The notes under the pieces are model-generated. The model was not told the origin of the DNA and did no database searches. It worked only from the letters and a program-made list of their open reading frames with translations. A stretch of 64,000 nt of DNA from Spinacia oleracea (Eukaryota; Streptophyta; Magnoliopsida; Caryophyllales; Amaranthaceae): assembly GCF_020520425.1 (NCBI RefSeq), contig NC_079492.1, positions 138,388,361 through 138,452,360 on the forward strand, in the 5' to 3' direction. Shown here one piece after another: positions 13,275 to 60,444 of the stretch. A program made the translations under genes and the position numbers. Each line of letters starts with the position of its first letter. The stretch's first letter is position 1.

Positions 13275-13775
13275 TGCTCTCATCAAGACTTCTCGTCAAG
13301 GCGCCTCATCAAGGCCTCTCACCAAGGCGCCTCATCAAGACTTCTCGTCAAGGCGCCTCATCAAGGCCTCTCACCAAGGCGCCTCATCAAGACCTCTCGT
13401 CAAGGCGCCTCATCAAGGCCTCTCATCAAGGCGCCTCATCAAGCCCTCTCGTCAAGGCGCCTCATCAAGGCCTCTCGTCAAGGCGCCTCATCAAGGCCTC
13501 TCATCAAGGCGCCTCATCAAGGCTTCTCCTCAAGGCGCCTCATCAAGACTTCTCGTCAAGGCGCCTCATCAAGGCGCCTCATCAAGACTTCTCGTCAAGG
13601 CGCCTCATCAAGACTTCTTGTCAAGGCGCCTCATCAAGGCCTCTCTTCAAGGCGCTTCATCAAGGCTTCTCATCAAGGCCTCTCATCAAGGCGCCTCATC
13701 AAGACTCCTCGTCAAGGCGCCTCATCAAGACTCCCCGTCAAGGCGCCTCACCAAGACTTCTCATCAGGACTTGCA
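13275..13775. repeat. 13-bp minisatellite with a 26-bp higher-order unit
   Basis: Monomers CTCATCAAGGCCT, CTCGTCAAGGCGC and CTCATCAAGACTT alternate as 26-bp dimers for about 500 bp. Because 13 is not a multiple of 3 and the monomer has no stop in any plus-strand phase, all three plus frames stay open and give the same KAPHQ/SSRRLI type peptide. This is a repeat artefact and not a protein gene. Confidence 0.9.
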
Positions 13776-14275
13776 AGCCCCCCATCAGGACTTGCAAGCT
13801 CCCTATCATGACTCCTCGACGTGACTCCTAGTCAAGACTCCTAGACTCCTTGTCAGGACTCCTCGTCAAGACTTCTCATCAAGACTCGCAAGCTCCCCAT
13901 CAGGACTTGCAAGCTCCCCATCAAGGCTCCTCGACGGGACTCCTCGTCAGGACCCCTTGTCAGAACCTATAAAACCGAACGGCTTACTAAACGCCTACAA
14001 ATACAGGGGCAAACCCTCCAAAAAGAACCATCGGGACTTACTCCCTCATGGACTTGCTCCCCATCGGGACTTGCTCCTCGTCAAGGCGGCTCATCAAGAC
14101 GCCTTGTCCAAACTACTTGTCAGGACTTGCTCCTCGCCAAGGCGCCTCATCAAGACGCCTTGTCCAAACTCCTTGTCAGGACTTGCAAGCTCCCCTCAAG
14201 ACTTGCAAGCTCCCCATCAGGACTTACTCCCTCATGGACTTGCTCCCCATCGGGACTTGCTCCCATCATGACTCA
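13770..14275. repeat. 21-bp GACTTGCAAGCTCCCCATCAG-type degenerate repeats
   Basis: Repeated GGACTTGCAAGCTCCCCATC, GGACTTGCTCCCCATC and GACTCCTCGTCA blocks continue the array, with partial return of the 13-bp monomer at 14080-14160. A few more copies occur at 14700-14750. Confidence 0.8.
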
Positions 14276-23385: not shown

Positions 23386-26300
23386 CTAATCGAAATCAAT
23401 AACCTGCTCATTCTGGAAACACTTTAAGGGCTCTGATCCTCGAACCTTCACTGCCCTGTACCCAAATGCTTCACTAACGGACCCAAACTCTTTTTCGTCA
23501 TCATCACTGTCGATATCTTTCGGAGTCACCCGATTCTGATAACTTCTACGGTTTATGAGAAAGACATTATAATAGTAGCTAACTAACTCCATTCTTGTCT
23601 TCCTAGGGAAAAATGATTTCCCCAAGAATGTATTGTTCAATCTGATTATATGCTTAAATCTCTTTTCTTCTCCAACTGACCAAGAAAGAGAAACCTCCTC
23701 ACCCATTCGATTGAACTTCCAATGGTAGAAAGATAAACCCAGTTCACGCCTTAATTTCATCTTGTTTTCTGCAATGTGAAATCTGTTGCATTCTACTGAG
23801 CCTGGAAGGAGGCAGTTGCATGACTCTGACCTTCTTCCCTTCCCCAAAAGTTTAATGGAATTCAGTTGTTGCAGTTCAGGAGACCAGGTTTTAGTGCCTA
23901 GCCATTTAGAATCACTTTCAGAAATGACACCAGTCCAAATAGGAACCTCGGCTTGAAACCGTGGACCTACTAAGACATGCTTCTCAACAGGGTAATCAAC
24001 AGTTGAGACGGCTACGGCTACGGTTACGGCTACTCCTTTTGTGTCTGAAATGTCAGCATTTTCAAGGTCTTGCTTGTGCTGCAACCCATTCTCCGTTGGG
24101 GGGTCGGGAGGATTTTTTAACTTACATTTGTCAACTGAAGTTGATGACTTGCAACATTGACAAAGAGGAGTAATTTCCAAAGACGAAAGCCTTTTGCTGC
24201 ATCTGACTGCTTCAGCAGATAGATGATCAAAGGAAATATCGTCTTCATACATGGAGGGATGTATCTTATGTTTCTTCTGCATATAAAACATAGCCAGATT
24301 TAAATACTTCCCCCGTTCCTTAAATATTGCACCAGATTGACTTTACGCTTCCCAACACACAACTTTGACTCTTAATCTCTCGAATTATGCATAAGTAAAA
24401 ATTATAAAAAATTGATATTTAGAAAGTTATTATCGATACGAATCTAACAAGATCCTACGTTATTACATATTTCTTACCTATATATTAACGTGAACAGTGT
24501 AAAAGTCAACATGGTGCGATATTTGTGAAACGGAGGAAATACATGATTTTTTGTATCAGAGTGTTTGATTGGTTCCATTTGGTCAGACCAGGTAATAGTT
24601 GAACAATAAATGTTACAAGACAGTGAAACATAGGTAAAAAGTTATCCTTCTATTGATCTACAAAAAAAATTAAAAATACGAAACAAAACACTTTGAAGTT
24701 AAGCAAAACGCTAAGTCTAAGCAGTTACTTGATCTAACTATAAATCTTATGGCCAAACCGCCAAATGATCTAATAGGAAACCTTTTCCCTCCTTTTGGGA
24801 GTTTATTGGGGCCAATACTCTTTCTGCTAAAACATTTTATTTTGGACCTCAATTTAACAGATTCATCAGCATTCTTTTGTTATACAGTAGTACTACTTTA
24901 TCTTTTGAAGGACCCACTAAGTAGAATATAAGACACAAAGAATGAGAAACCCCTTTAAATTCCTAAAGATGAGCATTATTAACAAAATGCTTTCATTTCT
25001 AAGGCTGGATAGTCAAAATCAGTACAAAAAGTTTACTCTTTGTCTCTCTTTGGTGTTGTTGCTACTTGTCAATTTTCAGTCATCAACTTATAAAATTGGA
25101 AGGATTAGTAAAATTTTAGTTGATTATCCACTCGGTAACATATAGCGTGGCAATGACATTACATTGCTTTGTCGTAACATGTTAGCTGTTGGCACTCCCC
25201 CCCCCCCCCCCCCCACCCACAGGAACATCCGAAAAGGCATGAAAATTGCACCATATTTCATAACATAAAGCCTCAAAATTTTGTCTCGTTGGACCCTAGC
25301 TAGGTCTCACGTTAAAACTGAAATCCCTTAAATGCCTGACATGTCTAGGCGAGATGAACGTTAGAACGCAAGTAAACGGTGTTCCTTAAGATCCTTTGAA
25401 ATTCAATGAGGCTAAAGCAAGACAAGTTAAGACTAAGTGGACTCATAAATAAAAAATCACTTTCTTGTTCATGCAATCATGCCTACTAACAGAAACTGTT
25501 AGTTTTACCCACCAGAGAAAAGAGGATAGGGGCATACTTTGACAACAAATGATCAAAGGAAAGGCCACCAATATACATAACAGCACTAAATTCCACATAA
25601 ACAAACCCACATCTGGTTTATTGATGTAATGAGGTTGATGTTGTTTGATTCAACTTTAATGCAAATGACGACAGAAGACAAAGTCATACTAATGTTGTAT
25701 ACATGCAAATGCAGGATGCTGCTTAAAATGACCTTAGAAAGCTATATTAGTCACTTCTTAAGTCTGCTAATGGTACAAGATGAAGCCCTATCTTGGCATA
25801 CATAGATAGAGTCTCCTGAAAGATAAAGTGGTGAAAGGAACTGCTGCCATTATCAGAAAAAAGCAAGACTTGTTCACTAATTAACCATAAACCCCTTTCC
25901 TTTTTCTCCCCTTTAATTCTCACATAGATCTTTAAGTTGTAACTATCAAACTAGCTCCTTTATCTATAATGCCTATTATCCTTCTTACACATTTTTCATT
26001 GCTTAAGCTTCTTAAACATAATATATCTGGTATTCTTACAGGTATTAGATAATTTATCTCCTTCTCAGACCAGATGGAGTTCTTTTTGGATTAAGCATAG
26101 TCTCTTCTTAAATTTTCATATCTGCTTCTGTATTACTTCTGCAAATATGGTGGTATTACTATTTTACTTTTTAAGATTTTACGGCAGTGAATTTAATTAT
26201 TCTCCACCAAGGAAAGGGAAGAGAACAAAAAAGGTCAAGTAATTCTCACATATTTCATCATTACCCAAAGAGCTGCTAATAACACATTTCCACTAGAACT

Positions 26301-28722
26301 TTGATACGGAAGCTTGTCTCAACAGAATTTTTTACTCCAGTTTCATGCAAATTATTCAGGACAATGTAGTCTACTGGTCTAAAGTAGCAACTAACAAGTA
26401 CCACAGAACCAAGTCTTGGATTTTACTACTCGATTTCAGCAATTCAGGACAGTAAGATGTTAACTAAAAACGTCCCAATGGTCCTTTATTTTGCATACAC
26501 ATCGATAATGTCACCAAAGGGGGGAAGCTGTCTATATCCACCAGAAGTATAAACGCAGCCCTTGACCTAACATTCCTTTCTCACAGAGCCTAGTCATAAG
26601 TTATAACTCCAACTAGGCCTTTTATTTTTCGATCACATTCACCATAAATGTTCAAAGAGTTGCTCAATATGTTTAAAACTGTACAATTTGATAAACTAAA
26701 ATTTCTGTAACATTCAGCACGTAAAGCACATTAGTTGTATCCTGTATGCTAGAATATAAGCAATCACCTTCAGTATCATCTTCAAAAAATCATTTACTGA
26801 GGATGACATTTCAAGAAATAGGCATATCCATGACCTGTCAATGATGTCAAGATTCTATCTGTTTGACCAACTTTTGAACATTCTCTTTTAAAACCTCCAA
26901 ATAGGTTTCACAGAAAAATGGATTGAGGATCATTGCCTTCTAGACCAAATAAATTAGAAATTTACCCACAAATTACACGATATCATTAAGAAAGTGATGT
27001 AACTACCCTCTTCCCTCTTCAGTAACTTATTCAAACTTACTCTAACTATAATCTTTTTTCTGTTCCCATTATGATTGAAGTACCTGACTAACCAGATACA
27101 TGCTATAACCATTCCGGTAAGAAAGCGTTGACCAACACTAATTAGACTCGCTGATATGATACTAATTATCCCGCCTCTTCGAAAAAGGTCTCACACTTTT
27201 TCATATTTCAATTCCGTATGTGACATCATTATAAACAACTTATATTAGGATTTCCACAAGGTATATTACACATGGAAATACATCTCATATTCTCTTATTC
27301 AGGAACATCTTAAGAGTCAGCTGTCATCTTATCATAAAAGGCAATTTCTGCCTCCAAAATATAAACTGGATCAAACTTGGGCATATATATTCGAACCTCT
27401 AAGTCCAAGGTTCAGTTAGCATTAATAGCTAACAAGTATTACACATTTGTTTCTTGATCATCTAATATCATTCATCCTGTCATCCATTAAAGGTGGGTAA
27501 CTAACATTTGTTTCTTTTGATACTGTAACATTCAAATCATACTTCAACCAGAATTATAACTATTCCTAGGAGACTAGAAAAAATATTCCTACATGGCCTA
27601 ACCAAGACAAAGCAACGCATAAGACATTAGAGAGAGGGGCAATCATTCAACTAGAAGTAACCAAGACATTCACAAGTAAGCTCTGACATCTAGCTTCAAT
27701 GTAACGTTTAATCATGCCATTTAACCATCCAAACATGAATGACACAGAGAGGGGGATAGTTTTACCTGAAGGAAACGAGATTGTTGATCATTTGTATCAG
27801 TAAACTTTTTTTGCAGTCTTGCTTCTCGGACCAAAAGTGCTATTGACCAAAAGTCCTTGTGACTACTTTCCTTCCATCTCGAGCTTCCTGGTAGAACTCC
27901 TATAGACGCATGACAAGGGTTCTTGGCAAGTTCTATCATCCAGCTCAGCGTTTCTCCAAACATGTCACGTTTCCTCTTACGAGAAGTAATATCTTCATCA
28001 ATGGCAATTTCTGTTTCTTTTGCAGCAAACTCCTTAATATTACATAATCTTTCCCCATTATCAACAGCGAATTTAACGACAACATTATGCACTTCAGTTG
28101 TCTCTTCAGTATCTGGCAAATGCAAAGTCTCCTTGGTGGCAAGGCTAACATTATTGCAAAGCTTATCATATCCAATACCCTCTTCCATTCTAAATGCTTT
28201 CTCGTCTGTTGAGAAGTTCCTTAACCTTTTCTCTAATTCTAACGATAATAAACCCAAACTCCCTCCACATTCATAACTTCCATTTGCTGAAACCCTATCT
28301 CTAGTAATTCTATTCAACCATTGGTCCAATTCATCCAAATACTTGTAATAGATCATCTTAAGGGATGCACACATTGTACATTCAAACCCAAACTTTTCAG
28401 CAACCAACCCCCACAACTTTTCTTCAGAAACTGAATGATAACCACCCCTCTCTCTCACCAAACAGAACAACTTGAACAAGTCCACAGTTCGACCGTCCCC
28501 TAACAATGCCGGAATCGGCCTACTCCCATTCTTGGCATACACACCCCTTAACAAAACCATTAGAACTTGATCAAACAAACCACGCAAATTGTCATCACAA
28601 TCATCCCATTTCACATCATCATCACTCTTAGATAACAAACCCACATCAATTAGCTCATTGCTCTCACTATTGTCAGTGCAATTCCCCTCAGACCCGTGAT
28701 CGAAAATCGACCAGCCGGCCAT
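23386..28722 (-). CDS. ARID and ELM2 domain chromatin protein, 615 aa, two exons
   Basis: Exon 1 is 27766-28722 (319 codons) and exon 2 is 23386-24276 (296 codons plus TAG); the 3.5-kb intron is GT-AG in phase 0, giving FLQ/KKHKIHPSMYED. Residues about 46-137 are an ARID DNA-binding domain (PIPALLGDGRTVDLFKLFCL, RERGGYHSVSEEKLW, YYKYLDELDQW). Residues about 420-475 match ELM2 (VLVGPRFQAEVPIWTG...WLGTKTWSPE), followed by a SANT/Myb-like helical region (about 500-580, YYYNVFLINRRSYQNR). ELM2-SANT modules recruit histone deacetylases, so this is probably a nuclear repressor subunit of the plant ARID1/ARID2 kind (Arabidopsis homologues are about 560-570 aa). An extra small exon in the intron cannot be excluded but is not needed for the frame. 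Confidence 0.9.
24307..24539. mobile_element. MITE inside the ARID intron, 233 bp
   Basis: Ends CTTCCCCCGTTCC and, inverted, TTTCCTCCGTTTC, with TA at 24305-24306 and 24540-24541. The ATTGCACCA/ATCGCACCA and TGACTTTTAC motifs are mirrored at the two ends. It lies about 30 bp upstream of the exon 2 acceptor on the minus strand. Confidence 0.75.
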
Positions 28723-30885
28723 GAATTCTCCCTATTCTCTAATCTCTATCCCTCCCAATCAATTAACCCAACAACAAATACTGAAATTGGAATTGAACAG
28801 AGCAAAAGACTTGATCTTTATCACAATAACTCCCTCGAATTCACTCTGTTTCTCTTGTCTTAGGTTCAATGACTGATAAGAGAGCAAAACCACAGCATTT
28901 ATAATCAAATTAAGTGAAATGAGCATAAAATATTATAGCTTTTAAGTCAATTTAATTACCTTAATGTGTTCTTCAGACATGCAACACAAACACCCTTTTC
29001 TTCTTGCTTGTTGAGTTCACCTGAACTTAATTAAGCGCCGGAAAATTAAAAAAGGGTATGAGAAAATGAAAAGAAAAGAAAGGTGGGTGTCTGAATTTTA
29101 GGCAGCTAAGATTAGAACAAATCGGGATTTTGGAAATGTATGAAAGCAATTATAAGGAAATTAGCTGGAAATTGAATTTTAATTAAAGAGGAAAATGATT
29201 AATTAAGGTGAAAAATGAAAATAATAGAAGCTGAATTTCCCTTGTTGTAGGTCAATATATTGGTGCGAATTAAGGGTTCAAAGGGAATTTTCAGGAGAGA
29301 TGAGATGAGGTTGAAAGAAACCCTAATAAATTTGATTTCGATCTTTGGGGAAATTTGATGTGGCTTTAGAAGGACAAAGAGAGATGGAGTATAAGATATT
29401 TTTTTTGGTTGTGGATTATTATATGGAAATTGAATTATGTTTTTGACAATTGGGATTTAGCAGGTTGCAAAATTAAGAAATATTCTAGGTATGGATTAGT
29501 TTTATTAACATTTTATTTATGGCTTGATTAACATGTAATAATCCGGAATCAAATAGAAATCGTGCTCGCGACTATAATAAATCGTTAAATTTTCTCTTCC
29601 ATAAAGGTTGTATATTTCATATGGGTGTTCAAAATTACCCGACCCGCTGACCCGTCAACCCGCATCAAAATATCCTGGTAATAAAATTGTTTTTTATGAA
29701 ATTAGCAAGATGTACAGTACAAGATCCTTTCACATGTTGCAATTTTGATGAAGGAATATCTCTTTTTGGTTCTATTTGTTATGTACTTTCTCTTTTCCAT
29801 AAAGTTTATATGCATTTTGCGCGTTCTCCAATACAATATTTGACCATTAATAACATTGATGATGTATTAGTGAAAATTAAAAGTTCAATAAAGTTATTCT
29901 AAACATCCCTAGCCTCTCTCCTTCAAACCCTAGCATCCATTGATAACTTTGATTTTTGTTGTTAAGTCCATTAATGCTTACTCCTCGGAGAGGGACGTTT
30001 CTCCCTTGAAAGACATGTTTTTCTTGTCGGTGGAAAACCCAATTGCTCTATTTTCTTGTGTTCTTTCCTTTAATTTTTATTTTTAAGTCTAATAATGCTT
30101 ACTCATTCGGAGAGGAACGTTTCTCCCTTGAAATACATGTTTTTTGCTCCTTTCTTTTCAAAAGGTTTTCTGCTTTTGTGTTGGTATCGAGTCGATGGGT
30201 ATTTTTTGTGTAATTTCGTGGTGGAAATTGTGTTGTTTCTATGATGCATGCACTTTGAAGACCAAGATCAATCTGGGATATGAAGCATATTCAGTTTTCA
30301 AGATTACTATAACGCTTGTAACGAGGTCTTCCATATGACACCGAATTGAAGTTGTTTCATGGCTACGCATTTACCTTGATTGCGAAGCCATTGATCATTT
30401 AGTTATTTGGAGAAAAGAATTTGTTATTATATTTTGAATTTGTTCTTGTTTAGGGAAAAATGTGATTGTAGATACCGAATGAATTTATTTTAATTAAATT
30501 TTTCCTTAGTCCGTCAAAAAAAAATGTGTTAGTGAAAATTATAAAATTTCATATTTGAAAAATTTAGATTGAAATGAATCCATGATATAATAAATAATGT
30601 TTGTTTTTTCTAATATCTTAACCACAAAATATGGTCAAACGTTAAATTCTATTTCTATTGCAGAAGCCATACGACCTTTTATTAAAGAATTGGTTTTACT
30701 ATCTAAAAATACTATTTAAAAAAAAGAAAAAAAAGACAAGTTCGGTAAAATTAAAGGGTTGATCAAACTCAATTACAACTAAAATAAGTTTGGATAAGTT
30801 ATTTTAAATATATAAAGCCCCGCCGCTAATAGAGTAGTTGATACGGGTATATGAAATTGAATCACATAGTATTTCATGCGTAGTA
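28723..30885. other. ARID gene leader and promoter, then AT-rich intergenic DNA
   Basis: 28723-29000 is the likely leader and promoter of the ARID gene. A direct duplication of about 60 bp lies at 29970-30025 and 30086-30145 (AATGCTTACTC...GTTTCTCCCTTGAAA.ACATG). No other gene was seen. Confidence 0.5.
29970..30145. repeat. direct duplication of about 60 bp, spacing 116 bp
   Basis: Both copies read AATGCTTACTC, then CGGAGAGG-ACGTTTCTCC and CTTGAAA-ACATGTTTTT. Confidence 0.7.
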
Positions 30886-42160: not shown

Positions 42161-45100
42161 TCACTCCCTACTTCTGTTAATGCTCCTCAGTTTCTTGGCT
42201 GCATGAATGAATTCCGCAATCACCTGAACTTCATCGACTTTCTGCCATGTCAAAACAAGTCGATAGAGTTAGCAAGATGAAAAGGATTAAATCATTAAAC
42301 CCAACTCGTAAAAAACTCCCAGAATTATTCTTTAATTAGTCGTTTGTGAAGTTCCCTTGCACATGCCAAAAACTACTAATACATCGACAAATCAAAACTC
42401 AAATGTGTTTTGAGCAACAAGTCGAGAGAACAAGAGATTGAGAGAAAAACCTGTGAAGCAAAGTGGCGCTCCACTAAACTAATCATTTGCTCCCTTGAGC
42501 TAGAATTCATGCTCCCCTGAATATTTAGTAATTGATTTCAACAAGTTTAGGCAATATTGCGGAAATTCTAAACTGTTATAAAGATTACTGAATTGTTTAG
42601 AATAAGATACTAACCAGGTGAAATCGGCTCAAATATCTCCACAGTGAATCACTTCCGAGCTTAGCAAAGTTCAGTCTCTGGCATGTTCAGGCCCAGGAAA
42701 ACATTAGGACCACATTTGGTCACATACTTCATTATTAATAAAAATAAAAATGCCCTGTTTATGTTCAAAAACCTTAATTTTGACGATATAATGTGACAAA
42801 ATTTTAGGACCACATTTGATCATGTACTAGAATTTGAACAATTGCAACATTTTTTCCAAAGATCTGAGTGCATGACAGTATCTACAAAGGACATAGTTCA
42901 TATGTAGGGCCAAAACCATTATCTAGAATTAGCAATTGCGGAGTAGGAATTAGTAATTTTATTAACAACCCACGGGACGAGGGTTGTGCTAAAAAAATAT
43001 GATACAGAATGAGGCATATAAAATAAGATCTTGTTCCCCCATCTTAAGTATTCAATTATTCCTACAGTGGAATTAGTTACAACAACTTACAAAAGCAATG
43101 ATATACATATATACCTACTTGTCTAAAGGCAAACACTTTCAAGTTTCAGTTCCCTACCCCAGCCAAAAAAGTAAGAATAAAAGAATGAAATCCAATTGAA
43201 AGAACAATCTGGATAGCAGTCAACAGAAGCAAGATAGGGACACACATTAATCATATCAAGAACGAGATCGTAAAAAGACTATGTTAATGATAACCCGTTA
43301 TAAATGGTGCACAAGGGCAACTTGTTTGTGATAACAATTTCTGCACATTTTACCCAAAATGTCCATGATTGTTAAAAGTTCTAAATATCTTATCAGAGTT
43401 TAAGTGGTGTTTTTGGGTTCCTAGGGAAAAAATGGTGTGCTGTGTATTGAGAAATAAAACGGAGGCCTCGGGGTTTCTTTATCTCATCACAATTACGGAG
43501 TATTTAAGATGAAATAGAACTTGGTTGAAACTAGAGTAATGCTCGTAGACTCGTAGTAATATGCATCCCAAATCCACTAAGAAATCTCAATCCCTAATTC
43601 TAATATGTGCATCTCTTCTACCCTCTCCGTCTCAAATTACTTGCCCAGGTTTTCCTGTTATGAGAATCTCACATAAGTTGTTCCATTCCTTTATTATGGA
43701 AAGTTTTTTCTATCTACTACTCCCTCCGTCCCGGAATACTCGACCCGGTTTGACCGACACAGAGTTTAAGGGACTTGAATTGACTTATTTAATTTAATAG
43801 GTAGTAGTTGATAGTGGGGTATTATTTTAATGTAGTTAGTGGGAGGTGGGTTAAGAGGTGGGGTTGGGGGAGAGTAGGGGTTGAATTTTTAATTATTTTT
43901 TGTATGGAGTAGGGGGTAGGTGGGTTAATAGGGGTGGAGTGAGAAATAACATAATATTGTTAGAATATTTCCATTTTTAGAAACAGGTCAAGTATTAAGG
44001 GACAACAGGTCAAGTATTAAGGGATGGCCCGATAAGGAAAACAGGTCAAGTATTCCGGGATGGAGGGAGTACAAAGTACGAACTATTAATTTGATTTGGG
44101 CCCCTCACTCACCCATCAAATTTCCCCTCTCTACTTTTTCACTTTCTTAAAAGGATGTGAAATGTGCTCATGGATCAAATAACTTGAGATGGAGTAAAAT
44201 AAAAGGCCCACAAAGCTTGCTTAGAAGCTTACACAGTTAGGGGTATGAATGACGGGGCGGAGTTCCTTCAAGCTATTTCCGTGGTTTGACTTGGCGATAA
44301 CAGATGGAGCCCATGGCCTTGTATGGCGAACTCTTGGTTTGCTCACTTTGTGAAACTCCATGCTAGCTGCACCATGTTACCAGCAATCAATAACAGAGAC
44401 AAAAGCACTTTGGTGTCGCTTTATGTTAGAAAAAACTGAACTATCACTTTAACCTACCAAACTCATTGTCCTTGTCTCCCAGGTCAGAGCTGCTACTAGA
44501 GTGATCAAGCTCATCATCATCTTCGTTACCTGTAGGTGGTTCTAGCACACTCAGCGCATTCCGCTGCAGCTTCACCTCTATTCCATTCTTCAGAACCTTC
44601 AACAAATTAGGAAATATCTCAACATTCCACCCACAAGAACTACTTTTCTTTTTTCACTGCCGGAGTAACAAGGATAAGCAAGCAGAAAGTCAAAAGGCAC
44701 CAAATATTTCATTCATACACCATATACTCGATTTATAAAAAGCAATCATCAATGAACATTAGAAAATATTCCATAGTTGACAATTGCACTTTTGGCGTCT
44801 TGTTCGTCATCTTTTTTTTAAAACCTTTTACTTTTTAGAAGAAATTAGTACAAACTGTCGGTCCTAATGACATATTAGTCATTTAGTCTTCCCACTTCTA
44901 CAATCATGTCATGCCATAAAATGATTAGTGCGGGCTAAAAAAACAACTAATTACACCCCAAAAAAGCAGTAGTGATCATGATTTACTAGTCAACAACAAT
45001 CGCATTTCAGCGTTACTTTGATCAAGAGAACATTGCAGTTTCTAATTTTCTATATCAGATTAAGCTCACTAAAATTGCAATAGGGAATTAAACACGAATC

Positions 45101-50332: not shown

Positions 50333-50995
50333 CTCCCTCTGTCCCGAAATACTCGACCCGGTTTGACCGGCACAGAGTTTAAGGGACTTGAATTGACTTA
50401 CTCCCTCCGTCCCGGAATACTTGACCTGTTTTCTTTATCGGGCCGTCCCTTAATACTTGACCTGTTTCTAAAAATGAAAACATTCTAACAATATTATATT
50501 ATTTCTCACTCCACCCCTATTAACCCACCTACCCCCTACTCCATACAAAAAATAATTAAAAATTCAACCCCTACTCTCCCCCAACCCTACCCCTTTACAC
50601 ATTTCTCACTAACTACATTAAAATAATACTGTACCCCACTATCAACTACTACCTATTAAATTAAATAAGTCAATTCAAGTCTCTTAAACTCTGTGCCGGT
50701 CAAACCGGGTCGAGTATTCCGAGACGGAGGGAGTATTTAATTTAATAGGTAGTAGTTGATCGTGGGGTATTATTTTAATGTAGTTAGTGGGAGGTGGGTT
50801 AAGAGGTGGGGTTGGGGGAGAGTAGGGGTTGAATTTTTAATTATTTTTTGTATGGAGTAGGGGGTAAGTGGGTTAATAGGGGTGGAGTGAAAAATAATAT
50901 AATATTGTTAGAATATTTTCATTTTTAGAAACATGTCAAGTATTAAGGGACGGCCCGATAAGGAAAACAGGTCAAGTATTCCGGGACGGAGGGAG
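50333..50995. mobile_element. Stowaway-like MITE carrying a second copy of its own family
   Basis: Outer ends CTCCCTCTGTCCCGAAATAC and, inverted, CTCCCTCCGTCCCGGAATAC, flanked by TA (50331-50332, 50996-50997). After removing the inner copy (50401-50733) and one TA, the outer element is 328 bp and collinear with 43720-44069. Confidence 0.93.
50401..50733. mobile_element. inner MITE, inserted in opposite orientation, 333 bp
   Basis: Ends CTCCCTCCGTCCCGGAATAC at left and the inverse at right, with TA duplicated (50399-50400, 50734-50735). It is the reverse complement of the outer element's sequence. Confidence 0.93.
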
Positions 50996-52760: not shown

Positions 52761-53170
52761 TACATTAGAATTTAGTAGTGATTTATGTGGCAATTTTTGT
52801 GTGTGAAGATAATGACTTTATCAATTTATTTGATATTTTATCCGTACCTAAAAGATTTTCCTATTTGACTTATCACAATCTGTAATATTAATACATGGGT
52901 TAAAATGTAAATATGTCTAATTATATACTCTCTCCGTCCCGGAATACTTGACCTGTTTTCCTTATCGGGCCGTCCCTTAATACTTGACATGTTTCTAAAA
53001 ATGGAAATATTCTAACAATATTATATTATTTCTCACTCCACCCCTATTAACCCACCTACCCCCTACTTCATACAAAAAATAATTAAAAATTCAACCCCTA
53101 CTCTTCCCCAACCCCACCTCTTAACCCACCTCTCATTAACTACATTAAAATAATACCCCACTATCAACTA

Positions 53171-53199
53171 CTCCCTCCATTCCTTTTTGTTGTTCCCAT
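53171..53199 (+). repeat. left terminal inverted repeat of the mariner element
   Basis: CTCCCTCCATTCCTTTTTGT, then TGTTCCCAT. A second subterminal copy of the motif (TTCTTTTTGTTGTTCCC) follows at about 53216-53233 and may be an extra transposase-binding site. Confidence 0.93.
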
Positions 53200-53721
53200 T
53201 TCCTTTTTTGGCGTTTCTTTTTGTTGTTCCCCTACTGAATCTTTACTATTTTTTGCCATAGTTTTTTTACCAATTTACCCTAAGATTCCCCACTATTTAC
53301 CAAAAATACCCTAAGATTCTACCCTTTCCCACCCACTTTTACCCCACCCACCTTATTTAATTATTTAACCTAACCCTACCCCCCCTCCCTTTATTACCCA
53401 TCCCTTTCTCATTCTGATTTCACTCTCTCACCTCTGATTTCTCTCTCTCTCATTCTGATTTCTCTCTCTCACCTCTTCGGATCTCTCTCTCTCTCTTATT
53501 TCACTCTCTCTCTCTCTTAAAATCCCTCCCCTGTTCTTGAGAAAACCCTAGGTTTTCCGCCTCTGATCTGGGTTTTCCTCTCCAAATCTCACAAATCTGA
53601 AACGTTTTCGCCGAAAAACTTTCATACAAATTACTCGGATTGATTTTCCGATCAGATCCCCTCTATTTTTGTCCCCTTTTTGGTCCCTAATCGTCGCTGA
53701 TCTTTGTTTTTCTGGTACGTT

Positions 53722-54907
53722 ATGGGTTCTTCTTTGTCTAGAACTCGAGGTGATTCTGGGGTGGGAACTACTGGTCAAAGAATCCCCGATTCCAACTGTG
53801 ATTGGGGATCCAAGTGCAACTGTCCCAATAACGAGCATTCCTACTCCGCCGAATATAAAAACAATCTGTATTTGGCCCAAAAAGAAAATACGAGTACTCG
53901 AAACTATTTGGAAGAATGGTTTCGGAAGAGGGAAGTGGAGCCAGGAGAGGAGGTTGAGTCAAAATATGACGATCGGAAACCCACTCCCTCAGATCTGCGT
54001 TTTTTCGGTGAAGGAGATTCCGATGAGGTATTACTTTTGATTTTTTGCGATTTTTTAAGGGTTATTGATGTCGGTTTTATTAAAATGGTTTGATGATTGT
54101 TTGCATGTCTAAAAAAGTGGGATTTGATAAATGTTGGATTTATTTGGAGTATTGTTCATTAAACTCGGATTATTTTTTGGATAAGTTGGTCTGATTTCCC
54201 ATTGCATGTGTTAAAAATGCAGATCTGGTATTATTTCGAAATTTTTGGGAATTTTTTGGAGATCTGTTGGATTCATTCGGGCTTTTTATGTTATTCTTTG
54301 CTCTGTTTTCTCATTGCATGTTGTTAAAATTGAGTTCTGATTGTATTTTGTGCTCTGTTTTTTCATTGCATGTTGTTAAAATTGAGTTCTGATTTTATTT
54401 GGAGCTATTTGGAAATTATTTGAAGAAAATCGGAATATTCATGTGTTTTGTTGATCTGTTTTCCCATTGCATGTGGTTAAAAATGGGATCTGGATGTAAT
54501 TGAGATTTTATTTCACAATTTTTGGGTAAAAATGGGATCTGGATGTATTCGGAAAATTAGTTGGATTTTAATGGAATTATTGTGTGATTTGCTCTCATTT
54601 ATCTCATTGCATGTGGTAACCATGGTGATCTGAAATTAATTGGCACTTTATTTTGAGTTGTTTGATTAAATCTGATTTTAATTCATGGTCCCCTGTTATT
54701 TTATGATGGCACTAATCATGTTGTTTGTCCCCTATTGATTGCAAGGAACCAAGTGGGTCTGATTCATTTGATCTGGTGTATGTTGGAGAGTGTGAAAATG
54801 AGAATGCTGATGCTGTTGGGTCTCCAGGACAACTTTCATCTGGTTATCCCTCCTCAAAGAAAGGAGAAAAGGGAAAAAAATCGGCTTCAGCGTCTGATGA
54901 TGCTTAG
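53722..54907 (+). CDS. accessory gene of the mariner element, 155-aa unknown protein
   Basis: Exon 1 is 53722-54027 (102 codons) and exon 2 is 54746-54907 (53 codons plus TAG), joined in phase 0 (GATGAG/GTATTA ... GATTGCAAG/GAACC, with a CTAATCA branch-like site). A CT-rich stretch (53403-53520) and leader precede the ATG, as in ordinary plant genes. The product starts MGSSLSRTRGDSG, fitting the MGxxxS pattern for N-myristoylation. It has a Cys patch (NCDWGSKCNCPNN), a charged helix-like part (NYLEEWFRKREVEPGEEVES) and an acidic Ser-rich tail with a lysine cluster (KKGEKGKK). No known domain was recognised, and no similarity to a transposase or Myb-like ORF1 is evident. It could be a captured host gene or a true element function. 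Exons are well supported; the role is unknown. Confidence 0.7.
54028..54745 (+). repeat. intron of the accessory gene with about five degenerate repeats
   Basis: CTGTTTTCTCATTGCATGTT-like motifs followed by GTTAAAAATGRGWTCTGAT recur at about 54195, 54306, 54356, 54466 and 54595, spaced about 50-130 bp apart. Confidence 0.7.
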
Positions 54908-55430
54908 ATAAGTCTGTCTCCTTTCTCCCTTTTTCCATTTTATTGAATGCTGGCTAGCTGTGGAGTCATAAGGTGGATGCCAACAACTGTGATCTGTTGT
55001 TGGCCAGGGGTGTTGTTGTTTGGATGATGATGTTGTGATTAGTTGTATGGATGTTGATGTTAGATAATGATGTTATGATATTGATATTGATAATGATGAT
55101 TGGATGATGGTGTTTCCATATGGTTATGAAATTTTGTGGAATGTTGTCTGTGTGATGAACATGATTTGATGGCTTAATGTCCCCTGTTTTATGGTATGTT
55201 TTGTGTATGATAAATATGATGCTTTGGTGAGTATGAGATTTGATCAGTATAACTATGTTTTGGATTAGTAAAGGCATGAAATGAACATAATTTGGGGATA
55301 GGGTTTGGGTTATTTCAGTCCTCTCAGTGTGGCCTGGTGTTGCTTGCTTAATGTCCAAGCATGTCCCTTTAGGATACAATAATGTCCCTTTATTTGTTGT
55401 GATCGATGATGAGTCTTTTTTTTGCTGAGG
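54908..55430 (+). other. spacer after the accessory gene, low-complexity TGATGATG region
   Basis: GATGATGTTGTGATTAG-like low complexity at 55010-55110 gives a long open minus frame of His/Ile/Asn/Thr that is not a gene. It may be the 3'UTR of the accessory transcript. Confidence 0.5.
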
Positions 55431-55522
55431 AACAAGTCCAACTAACCACAAATGCTCGTGCTGCCATTAGTATCAGTAATGATATTTCTCGGGCGCTAAG
55501 TGTTTGTGGTTTGGAGTTGTTT
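55431..55522 (+). ncRNA. hairpin A1
   Basis: Left arm AACAAGTCCAACTAACCAC and on; right arm, inverted, AACAACTCCAAACCACAAAC. Apex near GTATCAGTAATGATAT. Confidence 0.5.
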
Positions 55523-55621
55523 TAATGATGCTTGGGGACATTCTGAGATCAATATTAGGAGGTTTGTGATCTTCAATGATGTGATTGTTGATATTCTGAG
55601 ATCTTTGTTTTGATAATTGTC

Positions 55622-55711
55622 CTTTAACTTCTTTTGTCGAACGGAGTGAATGTCATTTCACACAATGGAATGTGAATATCAATCATTCCGTTCGGCAGAA
55701 GAATGTTAAAG
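55622..55711 (+). ncRNA. hairpin B1
   Basis: Left arm CTTTAACTTCTTTTGTCG then AACGGAGTGA. Right arm, inverted, CTTTAACATTCTTCTGCCG then AACGGAATGA. One bulge; three differences, all U-G compatible. Confidence 0.6.
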
Positions 55712-55946
55712 ATATGATAGTATTGAAACTACTTGATCAATGATGTGTGTCAATATGTCTGAGAAATGAAACCCTACATGTTAATGATCTGTTTAATGCT
55801 TCATGTCCCATGAATCAGTGGAGGTCTGTGATGAGTCTTTCATTTGATGAGGTTCAAACCCTATGTTTTGATCAGTTCATGGTGATCTGATGCATTGTTG
55901 ATTGTTATTGTTATGCTTGATCTGTGATGAGTCTTTCATTTGCTGA

Positions 55947-56037
55947 GACTCAAACCCAATGTTCCAATAACACTTGTGCACCATTAGCATCATTGATGCT
56001 CTTCCGGAGCTAAGTGTTAGGGGATAGGGTTTGTGTC
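55947..56037 (+). ncRNA. hairpin A2
   Basis: Left arm GACTCAAACCCAATGTTCC then AATAACACTT. Right arm, inverted, GACACAAACCCTATCCCC then TAACACTT. Apex GCATCATTGATGC. Confidence 0.5.
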
Positions 56038-56201
56038 AATGATGCTTGGGGACATTCTGAGATCTTATGTCAGGTTAGACAGGAGAGGCAATTCATGTAT
56101 TGCAAAACATGTATAATGTGTTTCTGATATTCAATGATGTTAGTGTTGATATTCTGTGATGTATGTGTTGATAACCTGAGATATTTGATTCTAAACATGT
56201 C

Positions 56202-56286
56202 CCTCACCACCAATCACCAAAGGGAATACAGATCATGTCACATCATTGATTGATCTAGTATCCCCCTTGGTGAATTGGTGGTGAGG
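56202..56286 (+). ncRNA. hairpin B2
   Basis: Left arm CCTCACCACCAATCACCAA then AGGGAATAC. Right arm, inverted, CCTCACCACCAATTCACCAA then GGGGGATAC. Two A-C mismatches and one bulge. Confidence 0.6.
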
Positions 56287-56407
56287 TTGTAAATCATTTA
56301 GAAACAAATCTGTCAATGATGTAAAACAACTTAGCTGAGAGTCAATGATGTTGCCTTGTTCATTGCTTCCTTGTTTTTGCTGCTTTGTTCTTGTTTCCTT
56401 GTCCATT

Positions 56408-56507
56408 ACATCTTTTGGCACATCGGCATCCAATTGGGAAGAATTTCCATCTGAAAATGATGTGATATGCATTCTTTCCATTTGGATGCCGATGTGTTTA
56501 GAGATGT
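56408..56507 (+). ncRNA. hairpin B3
   Basis: Left arm ACATCTTTTGGCACATCGGC then ATCCAATTGGGAAGAAT. Right arm, inverted, ACATCTCTAAACACATCGGC then ATCCAAATGGAAAGAAT. Confidence 0.6.
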
Positions 56508-56569
56508 GATGTGATAAAGTTTTTGTACTTATGCCTTGTGATCTGTGATGAGTCTTCATTTTATGAGTG

Positions 56570-56656
56570 TCAAACCCTTTGTTTTTCAATCAAACTCATG
56601 CACCATTAGCATCCATGATGTTTTTCAGGAGCTAAGTTTAATTGGAAAGGGTTTGA
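56570..56656 (+). ncRNA. hairpin A3
   Basis: Left arm TCAAACCCTTTGTTTTTC then AATCAAACT. Right arm, inverted, TCAAACCCTTTCC then AATTAAACT. Apex GCATCCATGATG. Confidence 0.5.
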
Positions 56657-56759
56657 TTCAATGATTTTTGGGGACATTCTGAGATATTTATGATTCTTTG
56701 TTTATGTGAGGCATATTCCATGTGTTATCAATGATGAATTGATTGTTTTTGTCAAAATT

Positions 56760-56862
56760 ACATCTTTTGACGCATCGGTTTCAAAATGGGAATAATTTCC
56801 ATCTGAAAATGATGTGATATTATTATTTATTTCCATTTTGAAGCCGATGTGTTTAGAGTTGT
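56760..56862 (+). ncRNA. hairpin B4
   Basis: Left arm ACATCTTTTGACGCATCGG then TTTCAAAATGGGAATAA. Right arm, inverted, ACAACTCTAAACACATCGG then CTTCAAAATGGAAATAA. The loop TTTCCATCTGAAAATGATGT is shared with B3. Confidence 0.6.
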
Positions 56863-56869
56863 GATATTG

Positions 56870-57211
56870 CAAATGCTGCCTTGTTCTTAAGAACCCAATG
56901 CTGCCTTGTTTATAGTGTTGCCAATGCTGCCTTACCTCTTGTGCCTTGTACTTTTTCTGCCAATGCTGCCTTGTTTATTGCCTTGCCTTGATTACTCTAT
57001 ATTGATGTGAATAAGAATGAAGAAAAAAAACTTTACTAAACTTAAACATGAGATTCATTCATTGATGCTTCCAAAAGATATGCTTACAAAATGTTTTGCC
57101 TACATGTTATGCTTGCATTTAAGCTTACAAAAGTGACACATTGGTTTTACTTGTCAATTTAAAAACATGTCCCCAAAACACAAAAAGTTATCTAATTGTT
57201 TTCACTTTGCT
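56870..57211. other. spacer between hairpin array and transposase stop
   Basis: Four copies of an AATGCTGCCTTGTT-like short repeat at 56873-56990, then AT-rich 3' flank of the transposase gene. Confidence 0.6.
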
Positions 57212-58855
57212 TCACTGGTTTGCTTTCCATTCATCATAGAGTTGCATGCATTCATTAACTGCCCATATAGGTGCTTTGACTTGCTCTGGCAGTCTGCCTT
57301 CATCTTCTAAAATCTTCTTCTTGTTGTGTGGAAGTTGGTAATCATTGTTGCCTTTGTGTTTTAGAATCTCATTAGAAACAAACTGTAATGTCATCCACAC
57401 ATTAGACAATGTCTTAGGATGCAACTCATTAAAAGAATCATACACTGCTCCACTTAAGTCCTCCACAGTTTTAGGCATTTTCTTGTGCATAAGTGATTGT
57501 ATTGACCTGAAAAATCCCAAGTCCAAGATGTTGCAATCTGGACTGTTTGCTGGCTGTTGAGTCAACACAAAAGTGAACCCATCTTGTTTGTAGTGTAGTT
57601 GCCATTCAGGATCACTTTGCAATATATGTGCCTTTGCATTATCTTGAATGATATAGATGACCTTTTCCCCTTCATGTGGTGGCCACTTGGCCTTGATTGC
57701 TGGAAGTAGGTTGTTGATCATCATTGCCCTTGTCTCTATTTGATTTACAGACTTCACTGGCTTTGTTTCAATGGTCCCCTTGAGTCTGTTTTTTGATGTC
57801 CTCTTGGCTGCAATTGCATTTGTGAATGGAAATATGCCTATTTTACCATCAAATTCACATTCCCCATTTTCACCCCACCTTGGTCTGGCTACTGCTGCCA
57901 TGAACATGAATTTTGGTATCTTGGTTCTTGAACTTGCACTTCTGTGTGGATAGGGTTCATTGTTTGCAAGATAAACTCTCTGGTTTTTTTGAGTCAAATA
58001 AAACCACTTCTCATCAATATGAATGAAGTCATACATGCTGTAATATGTTGGTTCTTGTGGTATAGTGTAGTCCATTATCAGTCTGATTGCCCACCTTATC
58101 CTTGCCATTTTGCATGCTTCTGAAATGCCTGGATGCAAGGGACTTGAGTGTGGCTTTATAATTTTCCTCTTGATGAGCCTCCATACTGTTGTTGGTCCCA
58201 AATTCAGCATTCTTGCAAGATCTACGATGCATGTTCTGTCCCCCATGCCTATTTTTGCAATTGAGTCATAGGAGACTTGAACCTTTTTCCTTCCACATCT
58301 GTGATATTGGCTTTGCACAATATATGAATTCATTGCTGCCTTCTGTTTCTTTGCTTTGTCCCATATTTTGCCTATGGTTTTTCTGGTGTAATCATATTCT
58401 ATGACTGCATCCCTTATTGCCCCACACAACAAAGTTTCTGAATCTGGAATCTTTCTATTGAGCAGGAACACCAATATTTCTAGCCTCAATTCATTATTTA
58501 TTCTTGGAGTCCTTGGCTTGTGATGATCTGTTGTGTGTGTTGCTGTTTGATGATGATGAGGTGATGCATTTTCTGATGGTGGAAAGTTCAAATCAAAAAG
58601 AAAGGGTACCTCTTGAAAGTTGGTAGTTTGCTGCTGCCCTTCCCCTTCTACTTCTGGTACTTGCTGTACATATTCAGTGCTGTTTGGTACATCTTCATTA
58701 AACCCAATGTCCCCAAATTCAGCAGCAGTATTTTGAGAAGCTTGTACCAAATCAGCAGCATCATCACCTTCCTCCGAGTCAGAATCGGAGTTAATGCCGT
58801 CGCCTTCATCATCAGAAAAACCGAGGAAATCGTCATCCTCTTGATCTGAAGCCAT
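57212..58855 (-). CDS. mariner-like DD39D transposase, 547 aa, intact
   Basis: A single open frame from ATG (58855) to TGA (57212). Cut-and-paste transposase acting on the element ends at TA sites. The N-terminal 115 residues are acidic and low-complexity (DQEDDDFLGFSDDEGDG) and contain DLNFPP (88-93), a DLNxxP EAR-type motif. Residues about 118-245 form the DNA-binding region with helix-turn-helix features (DLARMLNLGPTTVWRLIKRK). The catalytic triad is visible: D281 in HIDEKWFY, D405 in YIIQDNAKAH and D445 in SPDCNILDLGFF, with 39 residues between the last two, the plant mariner DD39D signature. Length is slightly above the usual 400-500 aa because of the acidic extension. No stop, frameshift or intron was seen, so it may be functional. 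Confidence 0.95.
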   Translation of the reverse strand: MASDQEDDDFLGFSDDEGDGINSDSDSEEGDDAADLVQASQNTAAEFGDIGFNEDVPNSTEYVQQVPEVEGEGQQQTTNFQEVPFLFDLNFPPSENASPHHHQTATHTTDHHKPRTPRINNELRLEILVFLLNRKIPDSETLLCGAIRDAVIEYDYTRKTIGKIWDKAKKQKAAMNSYIVQSQYHRCGRKKVQVSYDSIAKIGMGDRTCIVDLARMLNLGPTTVWRLIKRKIIKPHSSPLHPGISEACKMARIRWAIRLIMDYTIPQEPTYYSMYDFIHIDEKWFYLTQKNQRVYLANNEPYPHRSASSRTKIPKFMFMAAVARPRWGENGECEFDGKIGIFPFTNAIAAKRTSKNRLKGTIETKPVKSVNQIETRAMMINNLLPAIKAKWPPHEGEKVIYIIQDNAKAHILQSDPEWQLHYKQDGFTFVLTQQPANSPDCNILDLGFFRSIQSLMHKKMPKTVEDLSGAVYDSFNELHPKTLSNVWMTLQFVSNEILKHKGNNDYQLPHNKKKILEDEGRLPEQVKAPIWAVNECMQLYDEWKANQ

Positions 58856-59371
58856 TAAGTCCCCTGTTTTTTAGCTATTTAATGCTGAGTTGAGGAATAA
58901 ATTTTGGTGTGTGTTTGTATTTATTGAACTTGAGTTGGATCAGAATTTTGGTGTTTTGTGGGGAAAGTCAGCCTATTTATAAAGGCATATCACTTTTTCT
59001 ACCCCTCAAAATTTTGGAGGGAAAAACAAAGTCAATATGTTATTGTTTCTGAAAATTTGGTGGGATTTTTGGAGGGAAAAATGGGAGTCAGAATTTTGGG
59101 CAAAATTCCCACCCAAAAATACGTGACTCATTGTAATGTGATTGGTCCATAATTTTTCATTTGGGTCCCCCAGCCCATGTGACAGAAATTGTAACTCCTT
59201 TTATTGTTTACTTTAATAAATATCTACTTTTTCCCCAATTAATTTAATACTTTCTCTCTCTTTACTTTATTCTTTTTCTTACACACATTCATTATTCTTA
59301 CACCCAATCATTACCCATATCCCAATAACAACCCAAGATTCAGTTTTCTTAAAATACCCCCAACATTCCTT
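58856..59371 (-). promoter_or_regulatory. upstream region of the transposase gene
   Basis: Leader and promoter to the right terminal repeat, T/A-rich, with repeated GAGGGAAAAA/AATTTTGGAGGGAAAAA motifs at 59016-59082. No further gene. Confidence 0.5.
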
Positions 59372-59400
59372 ATGGGTACAACAAAAAGGAATGGAGGGAG
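59372..59400 (-). repeat. right terminal inverted repeat of the mariner element
   Basis: Read inward on the minus strand: CTCCCTCCATTCCTTTTTGT, then TGTACCCAT; 28 of 29 bases match the left end. Confidence 0.93.
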
Positions 59401-59487
59401 TACTACCTATTAAATTAAATAAGTCAATTCAAGTTCCTTAAACTCTGTGCCGGTCAAACCGGGTCGAGTATTCCGGGACGGAGGGAG

Positions 59488-60444
59488 TAGCGTATAAGTT
59501 ATAAAAAGTTGATATTCCAAAAACATGTATTAAAAAGAATCTAACAAGACCTTACTCCGTACTTTTTAAAGGAGTATTCTTTTACTCGGCAAGTCATACT
59601 CAAAAAATGATGGGGTCGGAATGATAAGAATCGTCACCTCGCCAAAGAGTCTCTCGTGGAGTTTGATTTTATACTCCCTCCATATTCTTTTATGATTCAA
59701 ATGTTGATTCACAAATTTTTATTCATTTATATTTTGAAAATCAATCAAATTTATTTTGGTTTAACACTTTAACATACGGAGTATCTTTTATACTTCGTAC
59801 CCTTGAAAATCAGACAAAATTGGGTTACATACACTCTTGTTGGTTTGGTACAACAGTATGGCACTATAGCCTATACTCCGTACGATGCCTAAAAGGAGGT
59901 GAGGGAGGTAATTTTTGGTTTTCTCGTTTCCCTCTTTCCATTTTTGGATACCACTTCTTCCAAATGAAATGTCACTTTATGACTTTCATAGACATCAAGG
60001 ATTCAAGGGTAATTGAACATTAAGGATTCAAGGGTAATTTGAAATATTTAATCCCTACTCCGTAATAGATATGGTTTAAAACGTCCTTTCTTTTTCTTTT
60101 TTTCTTTTTTTTTTGTCATAATTCTGCTCCGCTTACTTTCATACTTTGTGAAGTACGAAATAGGATAATTATAGATAAGATAAGTTTATGAAAGATATGT
60201 TAAACCATACAACTATACAAGGATAAAGAAGGAGTCTGTTTTTTTCATCAAATATAAATCATGGTATACTCCGTAATAGAATACCAGAAGTGAAGCAATT
60301 AGAAGAATAAGAATTGAAATTAAAATTAAGATTTTTTTTCCCTGACATATAGTAAAAGTACAAAATTAAAGACATGAAATAAATCTAGTTAGGTTCTAGT
60401 GTAAAAGTGGTGTACGAAAATGCCTCCGTTGATAGCTCTATGTG
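59488..60444. other. AT-rich intergenic DNA with MITE fragments
   Basis: A CTCCCTCCATATTCTTTTATG start at about 59673 and an AACATACGGAGTA stretch near 59774 suggest a decayed MITE. A tandem AAGGATTCAAGGGTAAT duplication lies near 59996-60040. No gene. Confidence 0.4.

Follow-up and report, generated by a model that had tools for sequence, protein, structure and literature searches.

The genome of spinach (Spinacia oleracea) carries, inside a Stowaway/mariner-type DNA transposon that looks autonomous, a row of seven RNA foldbacks that we interpret as probably being a tandem cluster of miRNA-like precursors. On this interpretation, the arms of two hairpin classes, B1 and B3/B4, stem from the E motif of PPR genes, and B3/B4 probably act on a host PPR gene. 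The hairpins are located within the element and are highly stable, their arms have changed with compensation on the opposite side, and differences between the arms favour G.U over A.C pairs. Complementarity of the arms to the PPR E-motif coding sequence has the correct orientation, and for B3 it also falls in the right reading frame. The analysis began from a window of 64,000 nucleotides of contig NC_079492.1 (positions 138,388,361 to 138,452,360, forward strand), for which a first-pass annotation made from the letters alone had proposed an array of alternating hairpins.

Results

Seven stable foldbacks between two convergent genes

The foldbacks follow one another in the order A1 B1 A2 B2 B3 A3 B4 on the + strand at 55430-56870, about where the first-pass annotation had placed them, and lie, as it also stated, between the two genes of the element, which are convergent (Table 1). 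The arms had been described as 30-45 bp long with short loops. They measure ∼23 to 45 bp and contain both mismatches and bulges, and the description of the loops is partly right, with 8 to 31 nt separating the arms in the B hairpins. What had been called conserved linker boxes are in part the lower stems of the A hairpins, which pair together in folds of the A units. Each hairpin was folded as single-stranded RNA and compared with 200 dinucleotide shuffles of itself, and all seven were more stable than all 200 shuffles, with z scores from −4.2 to −11.9. An eighth place, at 55815-55910, has an A-type 5' flank but does not form a hairpin, with a z score of −0.4 and 64 of 200 shuffles folding equally well.

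Table 1. Positions of the element, its genes, the hairpins and the predicted guide regions in the window.
Feature	Position	Strand	Remarks
Stowaway/mariner-type element	53171..59400	.	TIR CTCCCTCCATTCCTTTTTGTTGT...; TA at 53169-53170 and 59401-59402
Gene 2, unknown protein	53722..54908 (approx.)	+	exons ∼53722-54028 and ∼54747-54908, one intron, ∼155 aa; splice sites placed by eye
Hairpin A1	55430..55522	+	−39.5 kcal/mol, z −6.4
Hairpin B1	55622..55711	+	−46.8 kcal/mol, z −9.4; covariation with hairpins of 7 relatives
B1 3' arm stretch related to PPR E motif	55682..55702	+	guide role assumed by analogy to B3
Remnant A-type 5' flank without hairpin	55825..55867	+	from sequence and fold; lost or half cassette
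Hairpin A2	55947..56037	+	−40.5 kcal/mol, z −5.35
Hairpin B2	56202..56286	+	−52.0 kcal/mol, z −8.6
Hairpin B3	56400..56514	+	−66.3 kcal/mol, z −11.9; covariation across the 15 hairpins of its class
Predicted guide region of B3, 3' arm	56472..56492	+	complementary to PPR-DYW gene G000:C1:125081649, 2 mismatches
Hairpin A3	56567..56658	+	−29.9 kcal/mol, z −4.2
Hairpin B4, paralogue of B3	56751..56869	+	−54.4 kcal/mol, z −11.0
Predicted guide region of B4, 3' arm	56827..56847	+	complementary to the same PPR gene G000:C1:125081649, 3 mismatches
Transposase-like ORF, 547 aa	57212..58855	-	convergent to the array; ORF reading

A scan of both strands of the window (4260 windows of 120 nt, of which the 396 with an energy of ≤ −28 were compared with 40 shuffles each) gave z < −4 for six of the seven hairpins on the + strand, A3 passing on the - strand only. 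The array is the densest cluster of folds in the 64 kb, and other folds are present elsewhere. A highly stable foldback at 50641-50760 (z ∼−10.9 and −10.5 on the two strands), within repeats that also flank the element, is probably a MITE. Repetitive sequence at 13291-13830, which has long open frames in two phases, also gives stable folds. The long open frames at 23386-28731 on the - strand belong to a host gene whose product, judged by eye, we take to resemble an ARID-domain protein.

Plant miRNA genes are recognized by a stable foldback of moderate length with few arm mismatches, by precise 20-24-nt reads from both arms and by compensatory change. The foldbacks are stable and their arms have few mismatches, most clearly in B1, B3 and B4 and least so in A3, and compensatory change is found in the A hairpins, B1 and B3/B4. 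The size and shape fit those of plant miRNA or hairpin precursors, as had been proposed. A search of 53000-60000 with Rfam found no miRNA family over its gathering cut-off, the best being MIR1509 at 38.7 bits against a cut-off of 87.

A young family of mariner-type elements

The array sits inside a 6230-bp element flanked by a TA duplication, the ends of which form an inverted match (53169-53199 against 59372-59402; inverted ends CTCCCTCCATTCC...). Both the TA duplication and a TIR of the CTCCCTCC type, as expected of Stowaway/mariner elements, are present. The ends are known from empty sites, since at 43717-43974 and other places in the window the two flanks directly adjoin each other with no element between them. 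Both ends were found in 17 of 20 further copies, with TA on either side in all 17. The few flanking bases printed for these copies differ among most of them, those of L017 and L026 being alike. A MITE origin of the hairpins was considered and rejected, the terminal repeat not being seen in the arms on inspection by eye.

We take residues of the 547-aa ORF, recognized by eye, to be of the DDxD type. For this ORF Pfam returned only sub-threshold helix-turn-helix matches and no transposase domain over the cut-off. A second gene is unusual in mariner-type elements. Nucleotide diversity (π) of gene 2 among 18 copies is 0.0056 in exon 1, 0.0123 in exon 2 and 0.0195 in the intron; no Pfam family scored above the cut-off for gene 2.

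The genome searched comprises 894 Mb in 242 contigs, six of them large. The array occurs at 99-100% identity over 1501 bases in 40 places, window included, these being the places scored out of 291 candidates, and a 24-base pattern from the B1 arm has 372 matches in the genome and none in the control. From these near-identical arrays and arm matches, the element family is both young and large. Its copies were ranked by array similarity, which biases any statement that the array is kept or little varied among them. One or two extra A-B cassettes, 558 or 527 bases apart, are present in L029 and L030. The proposal of duplicated cassettes inside a DNA transposon is supported. In L030 the array is shortened and joined to a sequence starting CACTAGTGG, which by eye resembles the end of a CACTA element.

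Pairing is kept while the arms change

More diverged relatives (L032-L040) were obtained by searching the genome with the B1 and B3/B4 arms, so that the presence of an array in them is itself uninformative. The diverged relatives have the same hairpins with other arms, and pairing is maintained by compensatory changes; L039 has no hairpin over the threshold. Hairpin classes absent from the window, namely B5, C and a TTGGCTTT...CAGTTTTAATGTG foldback, occur in L032-L038 and L040. Among 17 A units picked by pattern from the window and the relatives, those of the A2/A3 type keep CTCATGCACCATTAGCATC or near forms and those of the A1 type CTCGTGCTGCCATTAGTAT or near forms, and a conserved guide may lie within these stretches.

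In the B3 class, 94.9% of 372 cells in 15 rows are paired and 20 are double-changed, and in the B1 class 95.0% of 240 cells in 8 rows are paired and 10 are double-changed; none of 500 shuffles reached as high a value in either class. Sliding the partner lowers pairing in the B3 class to 38-51%, a comparison that favours the unslid version on cells paired because the pairing structure is that of the window copy. The double changes are the stronger sign. Related rows are not independent of one another. All four Watson-Crick types occur at one pair in the B3 class and likewise at one in the B1 class. Two other measures of covariation are weaker. For pairs changed on both sides, 23 (B3) and 39 (B1) of 500 shuffles came up to the observed value, and for pair types in B1 as many as 442 of 500 did. 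Within the window, the consensus of B3 and B4 has three compensatory, three one-sided and no broken pairs among 42, and A1-A3 show compensation in 10 of 41 pairs.

The 5' arm of each hairpin was also compared with the 3' arm of the same hairpin, taken as reverse complement, and each difference was counted according to whether it gives G.U or A.C in RNA of the + strand. The seven units of the window gave 31 G.U-type against 5 A.C-type differences, a ratio whose p value is too small as the paralogous hairpins are not independent. Window and relatives together gave 104 against 24 in 51 rows, three of which are counted in two classes and one of which is just 5 bases long. By class, the G.U:A.C counts are 24:2 for B5, 37:3 for B3 and 6:0 for C, and weaker for B1 (20:10) and B2 (17:9). 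Rare changes, present in no more than 2 of 18 copies, are symmetric (39 against 39 of 167), so that the excess of G.U is unlike an effect of mutation; the excess itself indicates that the fold matters in + strand RNA.

A candidate guide strand and its coding frame

Among B3-class hairpins, 9 columns with 29 minority letters vary in the 3' arm, against 19 with 72 in the 5' arm. The 5' arm drifts via G.U wobble while the 3' arm holds, and the 3' arm is likely to be the guide strand of the B3/B4 class. In the B1 class the 3' arm is not more conserved, with 8 variable columns versus 6 in the 5' arm.

Most variable columns of the B3 3' arm are spaced three bases apart (72, 75, 78, 81, 84 and 87, besides 70, 71 and 86). 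This spacing suggested that the arm follows a target that is coding sequence, read in the frame T-S-A-S-K-W-(K/N)-E. This frame was taken from the variation of the arm before the PPR gene described below was found. Tests of the phase are modest (p=0.0039 for whole arms and 5e-5 for a core picked after looking), the synonymous fit of the best of six frames has p=0.002, and class C does not follow the every-third-base phase. The spacing of variable sites in B1 suggests the frame NILLPNG and not that of the E motif; read in the latter, just 1 of 11 changes is synonymous, so that B1 may no longer track PPR genes. That the B1/B5 arms encode NILLPNG is itself doubtful, since the E-motif frame differs.

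Arms of B3/B4 and B1 match the PPR E motif

A codon-degenerate pattern of the B3 arm matched 23 places in the genome, and its reversed control matched 6. Known relatives of the element account for seven of the 23. Among the four retrieved as L050-L053, a long ORF surrounds the site only in L050; L051 and L052 lie in frames of 48 and 52 aa, and L053 lies within a gene-2-like exon, seemingly a diverged copy of gene 2 exon 2. The rest consist of L042 and eleven places that were not retrieved, three of which repeat the letters of L051 and two or three of which are element-like. L050 (contig C1, G000:C1:125081649) has an open frame of 631 aa with PPR repeats, E_motif and DYW domains, and its site, ...LLSRIYASASKWNEVG..., is the E motif, with both frame and orientation as predicted. 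This PPR gene is the single candidate target that was found.

All 21 bases of the L050 site are matched by the B3-class arms of L034 and L035, and all 15 B3-class arms, including those of the window (Table 1), come within 0-4 mismatches of it. Their mean of 2.13 is partly selected, L050 having been found with a pattern derived from B3 arms. Controls at the same site gave means of 6.07 (antisense), 6.60 (reversed arm) and 5.92 (shuffled) mismatches, and the 5' arms (paired copies) a mean of 4.67.

A test independent of L050 used 60 E-motif stretches of other PPR genes, from 150 matches, in 39 of which the conserved W was placed, once wrongly. The best position of the arm coincided with the exact E-motif register in 162 of 585 hairpin-by-gene pairs for B3 and 107 of 312 for B1, the chance expectation being about 1 in 375. 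Single arms were in register in 10, 9 and 15 of 38 stretches (B3 types) and 10, 22 and 11 of 38 (B1 types), against means of 0.2-1.1 for shuffles that keep TGG or CGG in place; for the window B3 and B4, some of 300 TGG-keeping shuffles were equal or better (maximum 16 and 11 versus 10 and 9 observed). With a mean of ∼10 mismatches of 21 in those genes, this test shows homology to the E motif and not targeting. Against the best-fitting of 41 PPR stretches, the 3' arm of B1 has 5 mismatches in the window, 3 in L037 and 3 in one of the pair of L033 hairpins. On the 41 stretches the arms of B2, B5, the A units and C did no better than controls. B5 arms were in E-motif register in 1 and 4 of 38, and for one C arm a single offset out of 12 tried held 9 of the 38 best positions, a raw count. 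As judged by sequence, both B1 and B3/B4 share a relationship with the E motif of PPR genes, and L050 is a plausible present target of B3/B4.

Searches of the genome with the B1 and B3/B4 arms led mainly back to the element and its relatives. The B1 arm was found at 21 places (control 0), 18 of which share one common 35-base string; the one of these 18 that was retrieved, L033, is an element subfamily, and the other three places are in the relatives L032, L034 and L038. The B3/B4 arm was found at 11 places (control 0), nine of them in eight relatives (L032, L034-L040), one (C2:108260167) within a transporter-like ORF in a different phase and one (C3:140234135) without a long ORF. A codon pattern of B1 matched at chance level (75 versus 78 in the control), and none of seven places retrieved lies in an open frame of more than 50 aa. 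The B2 arm gave 6 places versus 2 in the control, and neither this search nor the PPR stretches yielded a target for B2. A match of B2 to the PPR E+ motif made by eye (HHPFTKGDT) was not supported by mismatch counts and was dropped. A peptide search of the PDB gave no match. Self-targeting was likewise rejected for the window, in which 21-mers of the seven hairpins with up to 3 mismatches matched 3 places outside the array and 2 in the reversed control.

Discussion

The first-pass annotation inferred a small-RNA locus that might silence rivals, hosts or the element itself. A small-RNA locus is supported by the size, shape and stability of the folds and by their strand-specific, compensated evolution. 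The first of the two outcomes that it named as refuting, folds no more stable than those of shuffled controls, did not occur. Of its possible targets, hosts have gained support through the match of B3/B4 and B1 arms to the E motif of host PPR genes; for rivals we found no evidence, and for the element itself, matches of arm 21-mers to the transposase, to gene 2 and to other parts of the window did not exceed those of the reversed control. In the mechanism that we infer, the array is probably transcribed from the + strand, Dicer-like enzymes probably cut the hairpins into 21-22-nt small RNAs, and the 3' arms of B3/B4 would supply the guides to be loaded. The B1 and B3/B4 hairpins would descend from the E-motif coding sequence of PLS-class PPR genes, and the guides from B3/B4 would, probably still today, pair with host PPR mRNA at the E motif, leading to its cleavage and perhaps to phased secondary siRNAs. 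Targets of the A hairpins and of B2 would be different ones.

A competing explanation that we hold to be possible is that the array is a passenger, a host cluster of PPR-targeting MIR genes or inverted PPR fragments picked up by an ancestor of the element, for which no benefit is needed. Plant miRNAs and tasiRNAs that target PPR genes are known (miR7122 and TAS1/2; PMC5902766), and capture would agree with the homology of the arms to the E motif and with the differing number of cassettes among copies. However, double changes have kept the pairing through several older lineages, which suggests selection while in the element; the array pieces in L032-L040 are no argument against capture, these relatives having been found by their arms. 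It is rather unlikely that the foldbacks are instead diced to 24-nt siRNAs that methylate the element, as happens with inverted-repeat derivatives of transposons. Any long foldback in a young high-copy element may enter this path, and the B1 arms do match mainly the array's own copies and relatives, but the arms match no transposase, gene 2 or TIR beyond the reversed control, and neither selection for pairing nor similarity to PPR genes would be expected.

A structural role in cis, whereby the hairpins would shield or terminate the + strand transcript or act as insulators between the convergent genes and their sequence is irrelevant, would fit the position of the array between those genes and the way in which the arms change and the fold stays. 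We consider it improbable, as the B3-class 3' arm is more conserved than the 5' arm, has most of its variable sites three bases apart and agrees with a coding motif in the frame that had been predicted. TGATGA and CTGA boxes with GATC/GATC end stems recur around the A units and brought to mind a cluster of box C/D snoRNAs. The boxes turned out to be parts of lower stems in a TG-rich strand that makes such words common, and Rfam gave weak snoRNA matches only and no family over its gathering score at 53000-60000; with no recognized family and with the boxes in lower stems, this reading was rejected as extremely improbable. The interpretation that we favour remains a cluster of miRNA-like precursors with PPR-related arms. 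A bolder version of it, which we offer tentatively, is that a mariner-type element possesses a diversifying small-RNA arsenal of its own, in which PPR-seeded cassettes duplicate and shift targets, keep the foldback and alter the expression of host genes (PPR genes, and others in the case of A and B2), the element for example entering or loading the secondary-siRNA system of the host. A tandem array of seven precursors in a young, multi-copy element, together with diverged relatives whose arms change under a constant fold and a matching host gene, would offer a natural series for tracing stepwise how miRNA genes are born, duplicated and retargeted, and it raises the question of why a transposon would aim at PPR genes.

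In the foldback of MITE-derived miRNA genes, the element's own inverted repeats form the stem, unlike the present hairpins, which are internal to the element. Common to both are foldback precursors that come from a class II element, described as a source of plant miRNA genes (PMC10004981). PPR genes are under the control of miR7122 and TAS1/TAS2, with 22-nt miRNAs giving rise to phased siRNAs (PMC5902766). As the present array would do, that system aims small RNAs at the PPR family; it is described there without a transposon, and the likeness drawn here is one of description (PMC5902766). Transposon-borne miRNAs and PPR-directed miRNAs are thus already known. No report of this element or array was found in searches of the open-access literature, relative to which a tandem, duplicating array of precursors with PPR-related arms in a mariner-type element appears to be new.

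The closest counterpart is miR820, which is carried by CACTA transposons of rice and targets the DNA methyltransferase OsDRM2, a case showing that carrying a miRNA directed at a host gene can benefit a transposon (PMC3459959). Both systems consist of a DNA transposon with a miRNA or miRNA-like foldback that is related to a host gene and of which copies multiply with the element. As in the miR820 system, the precursor lies inside the element and is copied along with it, and the predicted guide of B3/B4 is complementary to a host gene. miR820 and its target have changed together (PMC3459959), to which we liken the changes of the arms seen here. By contrast, miR820 has one precursor per element, within the CACTA superfamily, and a DNA methyltransferase as its target, whereas the present array has seven precursors in tandem in a mariner-type element, a host match to a PPR gene and a small RNA that is predicted.
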